Shown piece by piece: positions 36,094 through 45,760 of a stretch of 64,000 bases of DNA; positions within the stretch are counted from its first letter, which is position 1, and each line of letters starts with the position of its first letter. The position numbers were made by a program, and so were the translations under genes. The notes beneath the pieces were generated by a model. That model saw nothing but the letters and a program-made list of their open reading frames with translations, was not told the origin of the DNA and searched no databases. The stretch is from positions 62,001 to 126,000 of the forward strand of contig NZ_CP101154.1 in assembly GCF_024298905.1 (NCBI RefSeq), read 5' to 3'. The stretch is from Natronomonas marina. Lineage in GTDB: Archaea; Halobacteriota; Halobacteria; Halobacteriales; Haloarculaceae.

Positions 36094-37185
36094 ATGGACC
36101 CCCGTATCCGCGAACACGCCGAGATAATCGTCGACCACTCGACGGACGTCCAGCAGGGTGACAACGTCGTCATCAGCGCGCCGAGCGTCGCCGAGGACCT
36201 CGCCGTCGCGCTCCACGAGGCCGTCGGCGACCGGGGGGCGACGCCGGTGTACCTCGCCAGCGACTCCCGGGCGGGACGGGCCTACCTCAAGGCCATCGAC
36301 GACGAGGACATCGAGACGCCGACGCACCTGCAGGCGCTCTACGAGGAGAGCGACGCGCTCCTGCGCGTCCGGTCGGAGACGAACGCGACCGAGCAGGGCG
36401 ACGTCGACCCCGAGACGCAGTCGACGTACACGAAGGCCCGCCGCCCCGTCCAGGAGGTCGCGCTCTCGAAGCGGTGGTGTCTCACGCAGTTCCCCTCGCC
36501 GGCCAGCGCACAGTTGGCGGGCATGAGCACCGAGGGTTACGAGAACTTCGTCTGGGACGCCATCAACAAGGACTGGGACGCCCAGCGCGAACACCAGGCC
36601 CGGATGGTCGACATCCTCGACCCCGCCGACGAGATCCACATCAAGAGCGGCGACACGACCGACGTGCGGATGTCCGTCGACGGCATGCACACCATCAACG
36701 ACTACGGCGAGAACAACCTCCCCGGCGGCGAGGTGTTCACCGCTCCCGTCGTCGACAGCGTCGAGGGCGAGGTGCTGTTCGACAAGCCGCTGTACCACCA
36801 GGGCCGCGAAATCACCGGTGCCCACCTCGTCTTCGAGGACGGCGAGGTCGTCGAGCACTCGGCCGACCAGCACGAGGACCTCCTCACCGAGGTGCTGAAC
36901 ACCGACGACGGCGCCAGTCGCCTCGGCGAACTCGGCATCGGGATGAACCGCGACATCGACCGGTTCACCTACAACATGCTGTTCGACGAGAAGATGGGCG
37001 ACACCGTCCACATGGCCATCGGCCGCGCCTACGACGACACCGTCGGCGAGGATCGGGAGGCCAACCAGTCGGCGGTCCACCTCGACATGATCGTCGACAT
37101 GAGCGAGGATTCGTTCATCGAGGTCGACGGGGAAGTCGTCCAGCGTGACGGGCGGTTCCGGTTCGAGGACGGGTTCGAGGAGTAG
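36094..37185 (+). CDS. M29 family aminopeptidase (AmpS/PepS-like)
   Basis: A 363-residue cytoplasmic metallo-aminopeptidase expected to remove N-terminal residues from peptides using two metal ions. Metal-ligand segments of the M29 family are recognisable: NNLPGGEVFTAP (about 209-220) with the key Glu, LGELGIGMN (about 284-292), EKMGDTVHMAIGRAY (about 309-323) and the HLDMIVDMS region (about 335-343). It is shorter than the roughly 410-residue bacterial enzymes. The ATG follows a TATA-like gggtatagg by 27 bases. The last 48 bases, including the stop, are duplicated 110 bases downstream. Confidence 0.9.
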   Translation: MDPRIREHAEIIVDHSTDVQQGDNVVISAPSVAEDLAVALHEAVGDRGATPVYLASDSRAGRAYLKAIDDEDIETPTHLQALYEESDALLRVRSETNATEQGDVDPETQSTYTKARRPVQEVALSKRWCLTQFPSPASAQLAGMSTEGYENFVWDAINKDWDAQREHQARMVDILDPADEIHIKSGDTTDVRMSVDGMHTINDYGENNLPGGEVFTAPVVDSVEGEVLFDKPLYHQGREITGAHLVFEDGEVVEHSADQHEDLLTEVLNTDDGASRLGELGIGMNRDIDRFTYNMLFDEKMGDTVHMAIGRAYDDTVGEDREANQSAVHLDMIVDMSEDSFIEVDGEVVQRDGRFRFEDGFEE

Positions 37186-37295
37186 TTTTCATGAACGGTT
37201 TCGGCGGCCGAGGGGAGCGATGCCGCCGGAAAAGGTTCGTGTAGGTGGTCCAGCGTGATGGTCGGTTCCGGTTCGAGGACGGGTTCGAGGAGTAG
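37138..37295 (+). repeat. Direct repeat of the aminopeptidase 3' end
   Basis: The last 48 bases of the aminopeptidase gene, ending with the stop TAG (37138-37185), recur at 37248-37295 with two mismatches. The 62 bases between are non-coding. The second copy is not attached to a reading frame of its own. The arrangement (gene 3' end duplicated just downstream) resembles what site-specific integration or a short tandem duplication would leave. Confidence 0.85.
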
Positions 37296-37339: not shown

Positions 37340-37516
37340 TCAGTCCGCTCGCTTCGAGAGGTACTCGTTGACGAGCAGCGGGGCGACGACCCCGACGCCG
37401 AGGACGACCGCCGAACTCGCCCAGGTCGGGAGGGTCGTCACCTCCAGCAGACCGTACAGGAGGACGAGCGTCAGCGCGATGAACCCCACTATCACCGTGT
37501 TCTCGCGGGAGACCAT
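37340..37516 (-). CDS. Small membrane protein, 58 residues
   Basis: Encodes 58 residues, beginning MVSRENTVIVGF and ending EYLSKRAD. It is mostly two hydrophobic segments (about 8-26 and 30-49) joined by a short LEVTTLPTW turn, so a two-helix membrane hairpin with a basic C-terminal tail is likely. A minus-strand TATA-like gatttatcc (about 37539-37547) lies 27-28 bases upstream of the ATG, as expected for a leaderless haloarchaeal gene. It is a hypothetical protein; no partner is evident. Confidence 0.7.
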   Translation of the reverse strand: MVSRENTVIVGFIALTLVLLYGLLEVTTLPTWASSAVVLGVGVVAPLLVNEYLSKRAD

Positions 37517-37549
37517 ACCGTCTCGTCTTCGGAGCGACGGATAAATCGT

Positions 37550-37944
37550 TCGTCAGGCGACGAGCGCGTTGTAGCCAACGCGCACCGACAGTACTCTCAC
37601 GCGTTCCGGCACGGGTGGTTGTTCGGTTCGGAGTCACGTCGAAGAAGCCGCCGGCGAGGTCGGAGACGCCAGCGGCGGGACACGATCCCCGCGGTGGGCA
37701 GGACACCGCGGGGTCATACAGGCCCGAGGCAGGAGTACGCCGGTCACGGGTCCGGGCCGGCGGCAGGGCCAGCGCCGCCGGACTTGATGGCAGGTCGAAC
37801 CAGAGCGATTCACCGGGCGTGGTGGCTCACCTCCGCGGACTCGTGGTTCTCGGTGAGGCCCTCCATCGACGAGCGACTACCACCGGCGGCGGACGGCACC
37901 GCACCAGCGGACCCCACGAACGGTCGGTCGCTTGCGGACATTAC
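37550..37944 (-). ncRNA. Possible structured non-coding RNA
   Basis: About 395 bases without a convincing protein gene but downstream of a strong minus-strand TATA box (cttttattcc, about 37966-37975). Very stable hairpins are predicted by eye: a 10-bp stem ccccgcggtg/caccgcgggg with a 7-base loop (near 37686-37712), a GCCGCCGG-type stem (near 37755-37785), and gcgcgtt/aacgcgc (near 37565-37584). The only alternative is a 43-codon frame starting ATGTCCGCAAGCG at 37941, 28 bases from the box. I could not match it to RNase P RNA (no GAGGAAAGTC core) or SRP RNA (no helix-8 GGTCAGG/GGAAG motif). Confidence 0.35.
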
Positions 37945-38136
37945 ACTCACAACCATCCGGGGATGGGGAATAAAAGTTCCGTATATATGTCCTAATAGCC
38001 TATTCTGTATGCGTATGACTTGGATATGGGCACAAAAGTTCGAGAATGTTTTGTGAATGCTCTACTGGTGGTCGTGCGTCGAACGGCGGTCGCGCGCCGA
38101 CGGCCCACGAGGACACCCGGGGACGAAACGAGGGAC
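37945..38136. other. AT-rich intergenic segment
   Basis: The stretch 37965-38060 is markedly AT-rich for this genome (for example tatatatgtcctaatagcc) and contains the promoter for the structured minus-strand region. The remainder up to 38136 is GC-rich and I see no gene or clear signal in it. Confidence 0.4.
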
Positions 38137-38159: not shown

Positions 38160-38221
38160 GCCGGCACGACTCGCGTGGTGCGACTATCGGCGTCGCTACT
38201 CCTCGCTTCGCTCCGAGGTAG

Positions 38222-38296
38222 CGGGCACGGTGGGATTCGAACCCACGGCCGTCGGATTAGAAGTCCGACGCTCTATCCGAGCTGAGCTACGTGCCC
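38222..38296 (-). tRNA. tRNA-Arg (TCT)
   Basis: A complete 75-base cloverleaf on the minus strand: perfect 7-bp acceptor stem GGGCACG/CGTGCCC, D arm with GCTC/GAGC, anticodon stem TCGGA/TCCGA around loop CTTCTAA with anticodon TCT, and T arm GTGGG-TTCGAAT-CCCAC. The discriminator is G and CCA is not encoded. It reads AGA codons. The 42-base region upstream is shared with the interrupted second copy at 38369-38500, so both have the same potential promoter. Confidence 0.95.
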
Positions 38297-38587
38297 TCGG
38301 CGAGGACTTCTGTGGCGAACTGGTTAGAGGTTGCGGAGCCGCGAGGCGGGTAGATGCTCATCGAGACTGGCACGGTGGGAGTGAGCGGACGCAGTGTGTC
38401 CGCGAACGCCGAAAGACGAGCGAAGCGAGTCTTTCGGAATTCGAACCCACGGCCGTCGGATTAGAAGTCCGACGCTCTATCCGAGCTGAGCTACGTGCCC
38501 TCGTCGAGGACTTCTGTGGCGAACTGGTTAGAGGTTGCGGAGTGCCGGCCTCTCGGAGGCGGTCCTCCGAACCCCGGCACGGTGGGA
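38297..38587 (-). repeat. Tandem duplication around tRNA-Arg
   Basis: The tRNA-Arg 5' portion together with the 42 bases before it (gaggacttctgtggcgaact and on to gttgcggag) recurs with a period of about 204 bases: once beside the intact tRNA (38296 upward) and once beside the interrupted copy (38500 upward). The acceptor/T-stem fragment ggcacggtggga occurs three times (38224, 38369 and 38576). The third occurrence lacks a tRNA body. This indicates at least two rounds of local duplication with later loss. Confidence 0.8.
38369..38500 (-). pseudogene. Second tRNA-Arg (TCT) copy interrupted in the T arm
   Basis: On the minus strand this copy has the full acceptor 5' strand, D arm, anticodon arm and T-stem/T-loop (38500 down to 38439), identical to the intact tRNA. 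A 58-base insertion (38381-38438) then follows at the T-loop/T-stem border, after which the 3' T stem and acceptor TCCCACCGTGCC resume (38369-38380), with a first-pair mismatch. The insertion folds into two hairpins, CCGAAAGAC/GTCTTTCGG and GCGGAC/GTCCGC. Most likely a pseudogene; an intron at this unusual position is possible but I see no clear bulge-helix-bulge. Confidence 0.65.
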
Positions 38588-44815: not shown

Positions 44816-45760
44816 CTACCGGGCGGCGTCCAGCCCCGAGGCGCCGACCCGGATAGCGTCGTCGGCGGCCTCGACCATCCCGATGAAGCTGATGAAGCCG
44901 TGAATCATCGACTCGTAGGTCGCGTGGAAAACGTCGACGTCGTCCGCCTTCAGCGCCTCGGCGTAGGCGTTGCCCTCGTCCCGCAGCGGGTCGAAGCCGG
45001 CGGTGACGACCGTCGCCGACGGCAGTCCCGAGAGGTCCGAACAGAGCAGCGGCGCGAGATACTCGTTACGGTGGTGGACGGCCGACTGGACGTACTGGGC
45101 GTCGAACCACTCTATCGTGTCCTGTTCGAGGAAGTACCCCTCGGCGTTCTCCTCGCGACTGGGGTACTCCTCGAAGGGCGAACCACAGACCGGGTAGTAC
45201 AGCAGCTGGTGGGCGATGTCGGGACCGGTCTCGTCGGTCGTCACGTCCCGCTCGACGTCGCGGGCCATGAGCGAGACGGCCGCAGAGAGGTTCGCGCCGG
45301 CGCTGTCGCCGCCGACCGCGACGGTGCCGTCGCCGCCGACCGCCCCGGGGTTGTCGGCGATCCACTCCAGGGCCGCGTAGGCGTCCTCCAGCGGCGCGGG
45401 GAAGGGGTGCTCCGGCGCCAGCCGGTAGTCGACCGAGACGACGGTCCAGCCGCTCTCGTCGGCCAGCTTCTGACAGACGTTGTCGTGGGTGTCGAGGCCG
45501 CCGACGACGAACCCGCCGCCGTGGAAGTACACGAGCACCGGCCGTTCGCCCTCTCCCGGCTGGTAGACACGAGCGTCCAGTTCGCCGTCGGCCCCCTCGA
45601 CCGTCAGGTCGAACTCGTCGTACACCTCGTGGTTCGGGGTGAACGTCGCCACGGCGTCGAACTGCTGGCGGGCCATCTCGACCCCGACGTCCTCCAGGTT
45701 CGGGGTCTGCTCGATCATGTCGAGGATGGGCTGCAACTGCGGGTGGGGCTCGTCTGCCAT
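44816..45760 (-). CDS. Alpha/beta-hydrolase, hormone-sensitive-lipase-type carboxylesterase
   Basis: A 314-residue soluble esterase. The oxyanion motif HGGG is at 80-83, the nucleophile Ser153 lies in GDSAG, the Asp is expected in GFDPLRDEG and the His in MIHGF near the C terminus. The catalytic triad is therefore complete. The helical cap is in the first 45 residues. The start at 45760 gives the typical family N terminus; a longer frame to 45808 is possible but less likely. It would hydrolyse short-chain esters or be a lipid deacylase; the natural substrate is unknown. Confidence 0.9.
   Translation of the reverse strand: MADEPHPQLQPILDMIEQTPNLEDVGVEMARQQFDAVATFTPNHEVYDEFDLTVEGADGELDARVYQPGEGERPVLVYFHGGGFVVGGLDTHDNVCQKLADESGWTVVSVDYRLAPEHPFPAPLEDAYAALEWIADNPGAVGGDGTVAVGGDSAGANLSAAVSLMARDVERDVTTDETGPDIAHQLLYYPVCGSPFEEYPSREENAEGYFLEQDTIEWFDAQYVQSAVHHRNEYLAPLLCSDLSGLPSATVVTAGFDPLRDEGNAYAEALKADDVDVFHATYESMIHGFISFIGMVEAADDAIRVGASGLDAAR

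Follow-up and report, generated by a model that had tools for sequence, protein, structure and literature searches.

The stretch of DNA analysed here, referred to as the window, is 64,000 nt long and carries on its minus strand a small predicted transcription unit between an M29 aminopeptidase gene and a tRNA-Arg(TCT) gene. The named close relatives of the aminopeptidase are those of N. gomsonensis, N. sp. CBA1123 and N. aquatica, all of which belong to Natronomonas. The features of the locus are listed below by window position; those of the unit run from high to low coordinates.

36094–37185, convergent to the unit on its downstream side: M29 aminopeptidase gene (Pfam PF02073)
37340–37516, minus strand: 58-aa hydrophobic frame downstream of the unit, with its own TATA-like box near 37541
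37687–37713, minus strand: hairpin P3, 10 perfect pairs and a 7-nt loop (sequence, alignment A4)
37739–37757, minus strand: hairpin P2b (helix 2 of A4), paired in 100% of cells, with 2 of 4 pairs showing double changes
37762–37779, minus strand: hairpin P2 (helix 1 of A4), paired in 90.5% of cells, with 2 of 7 pairs showing double changes
37786–37796, minus strand: conserved block GACCTGCCATC, 3' of the stop codon (alignments A1, A3, A4)
37810–37941, minus strand: 43-codon frame MSASDRPFVGSAGAVPSAAGGSRSSMEGLTENHESAEVSHHAR, ATG at 37941 and TGA ending at 37810; start, frame and stop are kept in Natronomonas
37828–37834, minus strand: Shine-Dalgarno-like motif GGAGGTG, just ahead of the stop (sequence)
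37942–37947, minus strand: predicted transcription start, near-leaderless (from the distance to the TATA box)
37967–37976, minus strand: TATA-like box CTTTTATTCC of the predicted promoter (sequence)
38221–38296: tRNA-Arg(TCT), upstream of the unit

The first-pass annotation of this DNA had proposed a minus-strand TATA box, which is borne out by CTTTTATTCC at 37976→37967. A T-rich box is aligned at the TATA position in all 11 sequences of alignment A2, and the sequence-only promoter/start model R1 matches the window at 37915–37986 with 51.5 bits. The transcription start is placed from the spacing between TATA box and start in haloarchaea, which would leave almost no leader before the ATG. Three other Natronomonas members (G003, G014, G018) carry GTG at or beside the start position instead of ATG. 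GTG is reported not to function in leaderless initiation (PMC3986360), so the three GTG members count against strictly leaderless translation. A scan for sigma-70 promoters and intrinsic terminators found nothing, and such a scan is uninformative for an archaeon. The boundary of the unit is set at 37687, where the last hairpin pairing in the window's clade ends.

Several further observations concern the flanks. A truncated second copy of tRNA-Arg(TCT) (38425–38495, minus strand) lies beside the intact one, and the pair looks like a tandem partial duplication in which the flanking DNA of both copies is nearly identical. The last ~48 bases of the aminopeptidase gene recur shortly 3' of its stop codon (37247–37295, plus strand), and text like this repeat is also found 3' of the same gene in G011 (L047). 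The product of the 58-aa frame is hydrophobic and probably membrane-bound, and has no Pfam or NCBIfam family at cut-off. In the part adjoining the promoter side of this frame (37550–37640) no conservation was seen.

Conservation of the unit and its short frame

A blastn search with a 451-nt query against 60 genomes, the window's own included, matched 15, five of which are other members of the genus (G001, G010, G011, G014, G016). The best cross-species match covers query positions 4–262, corresponding to 37987–37729 of the window. The DNA adjacent to the aminopeptidase gene was then compared at 20 loci; three paralogues (L063, L064, L065) and one locus at a contig end (L056) were set aside, leaving 16 that are informative. 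A common layout is present at 13 of these, the window among them. It consists of a TTTATT/TTTATA-type box, about 33 nt of spacing, GTAATG or a close variant and the short frame, followed by the G-rich motif, the stop, a CTCAGACACCTGCCAT-like block, hairpins and often a T-run. The remaining three (G002, G013, G018) have other genes at this place beside the aminopeptidase. Model R1 finds the unit in 14 of the 20 Natronomonas genomes, the window's own counted in, and in 11 of the 12 with a completeness of at least 90%; the model was built from 11 of its 14 finds, which therefore match by construction. The unit lies directly beside the M29 aminopeptidase gene in 13 of the 14, and in G018 it sits one gene further away with a tRNA just upstream. 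No plasmid-borne copies were found. By comparison of sequences, then, the unit is a small gene common to most sequenced Natronomonas.

The 43-codon frame had been offered by the first-pass annotation as an alternative to an RNA. The frame itself, from 37941 to 37810, is upheld; its standing as a mere alternative is not, as its start, frame and stop are retained genus-wide, with the GTG variants noted above as the exception to the ATG. Natronomonas frames are 31, 35, 36, 37, 40 or 43 codons long and end with TGA, TAG or TAA. The first stop falls at codon 31–43 in 11 of 11 Natronomonas lineages versus 1 of 11 for either other sense frame; of all 15 lineages considered, 14 have it in this range, versus 1 for each of the other two sense frames. 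This test takes one sequence per lineage, and its nominal probability of 4.6e-12 comes with a codon range that was set after the sequences were inspected and with lineages that share ancestry and so are not independent. The idea of another frame, coupled to the stop through a GTGA overlap, was considered and rejected, as the overlap occurs in some members only and is absent where the stop is TAG or TAA. At the loci beside the aminopeptidase, no frame continues consistently behind the stop.

The G-rich Shine-Dalgarno-like motif is found within the last 12 codons of all 22 frames (14 from Natronomonas and eight from a second genus, g41, described below) and in 15 of 15 lineages; its chance occurrence is ~0.19 per frame, for a motif that was defined after inspection. 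Shine-Dalgarno motifs are enriched near the stop codons of upstream operon genes in Haloferax volcanii, where they have been proposed as pause sites (PMC3986360). The block 3' of the stop reads CACCTGCCAT-like in other species.

The peptide itself is not retained in the same manner. The 43-codon frame of the window has no match in Pfam or NCBIfam, which agrees with the earlier claim of no convincing protein, and it contains no cysteine and so lacks two CxxC-type pairs. Such cysteine-less frames occur throughout the genus and not in the window's lineage alone. Two close pairs of them show no sign of amino-acid selection over 7 and 20 changes. Between G011 and G014 the seven changes fall 5/0/2 by codon position (7/6/16 in the aminopeptidases of the same genomes), with one synonymous versus five non-synonymous codons. 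Between G131 and G133 of g41 the 20 changes fall 9/7/4, with two synonymous versus 12 non-synonymous codons. No residue pattern conserved across lineages is seen in the frames. Basic residues are in excess in the peptides (151 versus a mean of 115.7, sd 9.2, in mononucleotide shuffles), an excess that is a composition effect because all three sense frames are equally basic and do not differ in the charge composition of their peptides. A basic, nucleic-acid-binding peptide is rejected on the same ground.

Outside the genus, R1 was run over 392 genomes of the order and matched 20 genomes at E ≤ 0.001. Most of the matches examined outside the family are starts of other leaderless genes, the best being L186 with 27.4 bits. 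In genus g41 a unit of similar layout is present in eight of eight genomes (E 4.5e-8 to 0.055), upstream of a gene that we take by eye to encode an SPFH/stomatin-like protein. The g41 frames have 36–42 codons in seven of the eight genomes and 13 in G129. Only G132 (34.4 bits) stands clearly above the false positives of R1, which reach 27.4 bits. Neither a model covering the 45 nt that follow the start codon nor the hairpin model R2 recognises the g41 units, and the g41 fold, whose covariation term is unfavourable (+3.09), was left out of the evidence. Homology between the g41 and Natronomonas units is not claimed, because R1 also matches unrelated starts and the post-start and R2 models fail in g41.

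Hairpins behind the stop codon

The 10-bp perfect stem with a 7-base loop described by the first-pass annotation is present at 37713→37687 (P3). Of 300 dinucleotide shuffles of the region, 3 attain a stem of this length, as do 7 of 150 tiles of the window, each 426 nt long. The same annotation had called the DNA highly structured, and this does not hold: the predicted transcript (37687–37946) is ordinary against shuffles, with a fold z of −0.81 and 42 of 200 shuffles folding as well, while the whole 426-nt stretch has a z of −2.04 (60 shuffles). The apparent strong structure mostly reflects high G+C. With a fold that is ordinary or barely unusual, the case for a structured RNA from the single sequence alone is weak, and comparison had to decide.

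Two alignments were used, A3 with seven divergent Natronomonas sequences and A4 with six sequences of the window's own clade. Both were aligned by sequence, and the structures are favoured by having been derived from these alignments. The A3 hairpin behind the conserved block is paired in 92.9% of cells, and 5 of its 8 pairs show double changes. For the A3 structure as a whole, 85.6% of cells are paired and 8 of 19 pairs show double changes; none of 500 shuffles has as high a covariation score, and sliding the partners lowers the pairing from 85.6% to 33–42%. Alignment A4 supports three hairpins (four helices) in which 96.5% of cells pair and 6 of 19 pairs show double changes, again with none of 500 shuffles as high and with pairing of 29–61% when partners are slid. 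The check for covariation among haloarchaeal homologues is thus positive for the hairpins 3' of the stop codon, which show the compensatory changes of a structured small RNA at an ordinary single-sequence fold energy. R2, the model built on A3, scores only 13.3 bits (E 0.12) on the 3' part of the window; according to the alignments, the two clades hold hairpins at the same place that differ in sequence and length. No T-run follows P3 in the window. In a clade of three genomes described below, a T-run (TTTTT or TTTT) trails the hairpin at the same place, so P3 is probably a terminator hairpin.

Known structured RNAs are ruled out as the identity of the unit. As had been claimed for RNase P and SRP, neither is matched, tRNAs alone reaching the Rfam gathering score in the window. 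The covariance-model search returned no Rfam family for the unit, the best relaxed hit being to a microRNA model (E 0.086, 26.6 bits against a gathering score of 80), and Rfam found tRNAs only at the loci of 15 relatives. Elsewhere in the window, ARAGORN calls a tRNA-Asp at 45275–45346 (plus strand) that the Rfam tRNA model does not support at the gathering score.

From the earlier reading of a novel ncRNA or a long leader, the structured transcript survives through conservation and compensatory changes, and the leader does not. A leader for a downstream gene is not supported, as most congeners have the convergent aminopeptidase next and the 58-aa frame of the window has its own TATA-like box. 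The compensatory changes would also suit a plain structured small RNA with an accidental short frame, as would the lack of amino-acid selection and the GTG start in some members. The position of the first stop argues against an accidental frame, being confined to codons 31–43 in every Natronomonas lineage while the identity of the stop varies, and we consider this explanation quite unlikely.

A further helix, in which the G-rich motif pairs with the block after the stop, is predicted by RNAalifold on A3, where it has double changes in 3 of 11 pairs only. In none of 22 members does its duplex energy beat that of shuffles at p < 0.05 (lowest p 0.052), and this candidate switch helix is weaker on testing than by inspection.

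The zinc-finger clade and interpretation of the unit

In G001, G010 and G016 the frame reads MSASVPPYVGSASYAPCPECREGALTWDPVEGTSTCGVCENAR, a 43-aa sequence with four cysteines in two CxxC pairs, so that the paired cysteines of C(P)XCG zinc fingers are found in 3 of 14 members. The aminopeptidase tree places these genomes in one clade (100/100) within the genus but does not resolve the deep forks. The protein belongs to a family of four-cysteine proteins of ~40–57 aa that are matched in 34 of 146 genomes of the taxonomic family and are apparently leaderless at many loci; they have no Pfam or NCBIfam name at cut-off. All 132 nt of the frame are the same in the three genomes, while at the third positions of the 364 aminopeptidase codons they show 32–43 differences. 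With zero changes in this clade, the comparison used for amino-acid selection says nothing about it. The frame of these three genomes clearly codes for a zinc-finger protein, so here at least the peptide matters. The first 16 codons of the window's frame resemble the start of the zinc-finger protein, which fits either of two histories suggested by the sequences: a single takeover of the frame by the zinc-finger sequence, or retention of that sequence in this clade and its loss elsewhere.

These observations fit an ordinary leaderless mRNA for a fast-evolving micro-protein, kin of the haloarchaeal zinc-finger proteins, that is followed by terminator hairpins and that has lost its cysteines outside one clade, where the peptide would be under relaxed or altered selection. 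The retained start, frame and stop also suit it. It accounts poorly for the two close cysteine-less pairs, which show no codon-position bias, and for peptides with a charge composition equal across sense frames, no family match and no residue pattern shared between lineages. We judge a micro-protein mRNA of this kind to be somewhat unlikely.

The genome of the window also encodes an intact 57-aa four-cysteine micro-protein (L019, G000:C1:3591785-3591910, minus strand) that is 67% identical to the zinc-finger form. With such a paralogue elsewhere, no cysteines left, a poor score with the hairpin model of the other clade and no T-run after P3, the unit in the window's lineage could be read as the decaying remnant of a zinc-finger micro-protein gene. 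A remnant sits badly with a promoter/start block that still scores 51.5 bits, a frame that is open from its start to the aligned stop, hairpins that pair with compensatory changes in the clade, and cysteine-less frames throughout the genus. This explanation is very improbable.

The explanation that we prefer, tentatively and with confidence a little below even, is a small transcript whose frame matters through its start, frame and stop and not through its peptide. As judged from the alignments, the unit and its hairpins are conserved and start, frame and stop are retained; the unit would be transcribed and translated, with the RNA and the act of translation, and not the peptide, as the targets of selection. 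It would form a stand-alone Natronomonas transcription unit of ~260–330 nt, with transcription beginning at the start codon or a few bases upstream. Ribosomes would translate a frame of ~31–43 codons, reach the G-rich Shine-Dalgarno-like motif and stop ~10–22 nt further on. The remaining RNA is predicted to fold into two or three hairpins that probably end transcription and are followed in several species by a T-run. The role may be that of a regulatory or ribosome-associated small RNA, in which ribosomes pausing or ending at the G-rich motif could affect the 3' fold or the lifetime of the RNA. A ribosome-gated switch is possible; its specific helix step, refolding driven by the pause, is conjecture because the helix of motif and block is no better than shuffles in the 22 members. 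A bolder version, which we regard as unlikely, is an RNA that reads translation: the frame would be leaderless and free as to its peptide, the presence or absence of a ribosome at the pause site would set the fold or lifetime of the 3' part, this part would act on other messages, and in the zinc-finger clade the free frame would have been captured by a zinc-finger micro-protein or would still carry one.

Leader-peptide attenuators also combine a short frame with hairpins behind it, and in them the translation of the frame rather than its product may matter, with alternative hairpins forming downstream. They differ from the unit in that the gene they regulate lies directly behind them in the same orientation; no same-strand gene consistently follows the unit, which appears to stand alone, and the convergent aminopeptidase comes next at most loci. 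SR1 of Bacillus subtilis is reportedly a dual-function small RNA with a functional peptide. Both SR1 and the unit are stand-alone small transcripts with a short frame and a structured part, whereas the unit is archaeal and near-leaderless, has no known target and has a peptide that is not conserved.

Among haloarchaeal systems, the C(P)XCG zinc-finger micro-proteins (PMC11241148) are matched by the 43-aa frame with two CxxC pairs in three genomes. The window and ten other Natronomonas members are unlike them in lacking the four-cysteine pattern and in having unconserved peptides. Small RNAs that are found with ribosomes, most of them yielding no detectable protein, are known from Haloferax volcanii (PMC12482152). 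Like the unit, these are small and haloarchaeal; they are ribosome-bound and some have short frames. They were defined experimentally in one species, whereas the Natronomonas unit is defined by comparison and kept genus-wide in its start, frame and stop, and the likeness is one of description. In the largely open-access literature covered, nothing was listed on this locus or on a small RNA of Natronomonas.

The unit may accordingly represent a new candidate family among small haloarchaeal transcripts with short frames, one whose evolutionary signature is unusual. Standard annotation has difficulty in detecting frames whose start, frame and stop are kept and whose peptide is not. If the preferred reading is true, the unit would offer a compact test of whether archaea control a separate RNA through the act of translating a short leaderless frame, and an example of a micro-protein arising in, or being lost from, an existing transcription unit. 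Were it merely the mRNA of a fast-evolving micro-protein, it would still be an unannotated gene kept across the genus.

In another family of the order, a 13-codon frame MHETNSDCGGGGW with a similar promoter and a G-rich end lies around position 1550 of L192 (G187), and is possibly a distant unit of the same layout.
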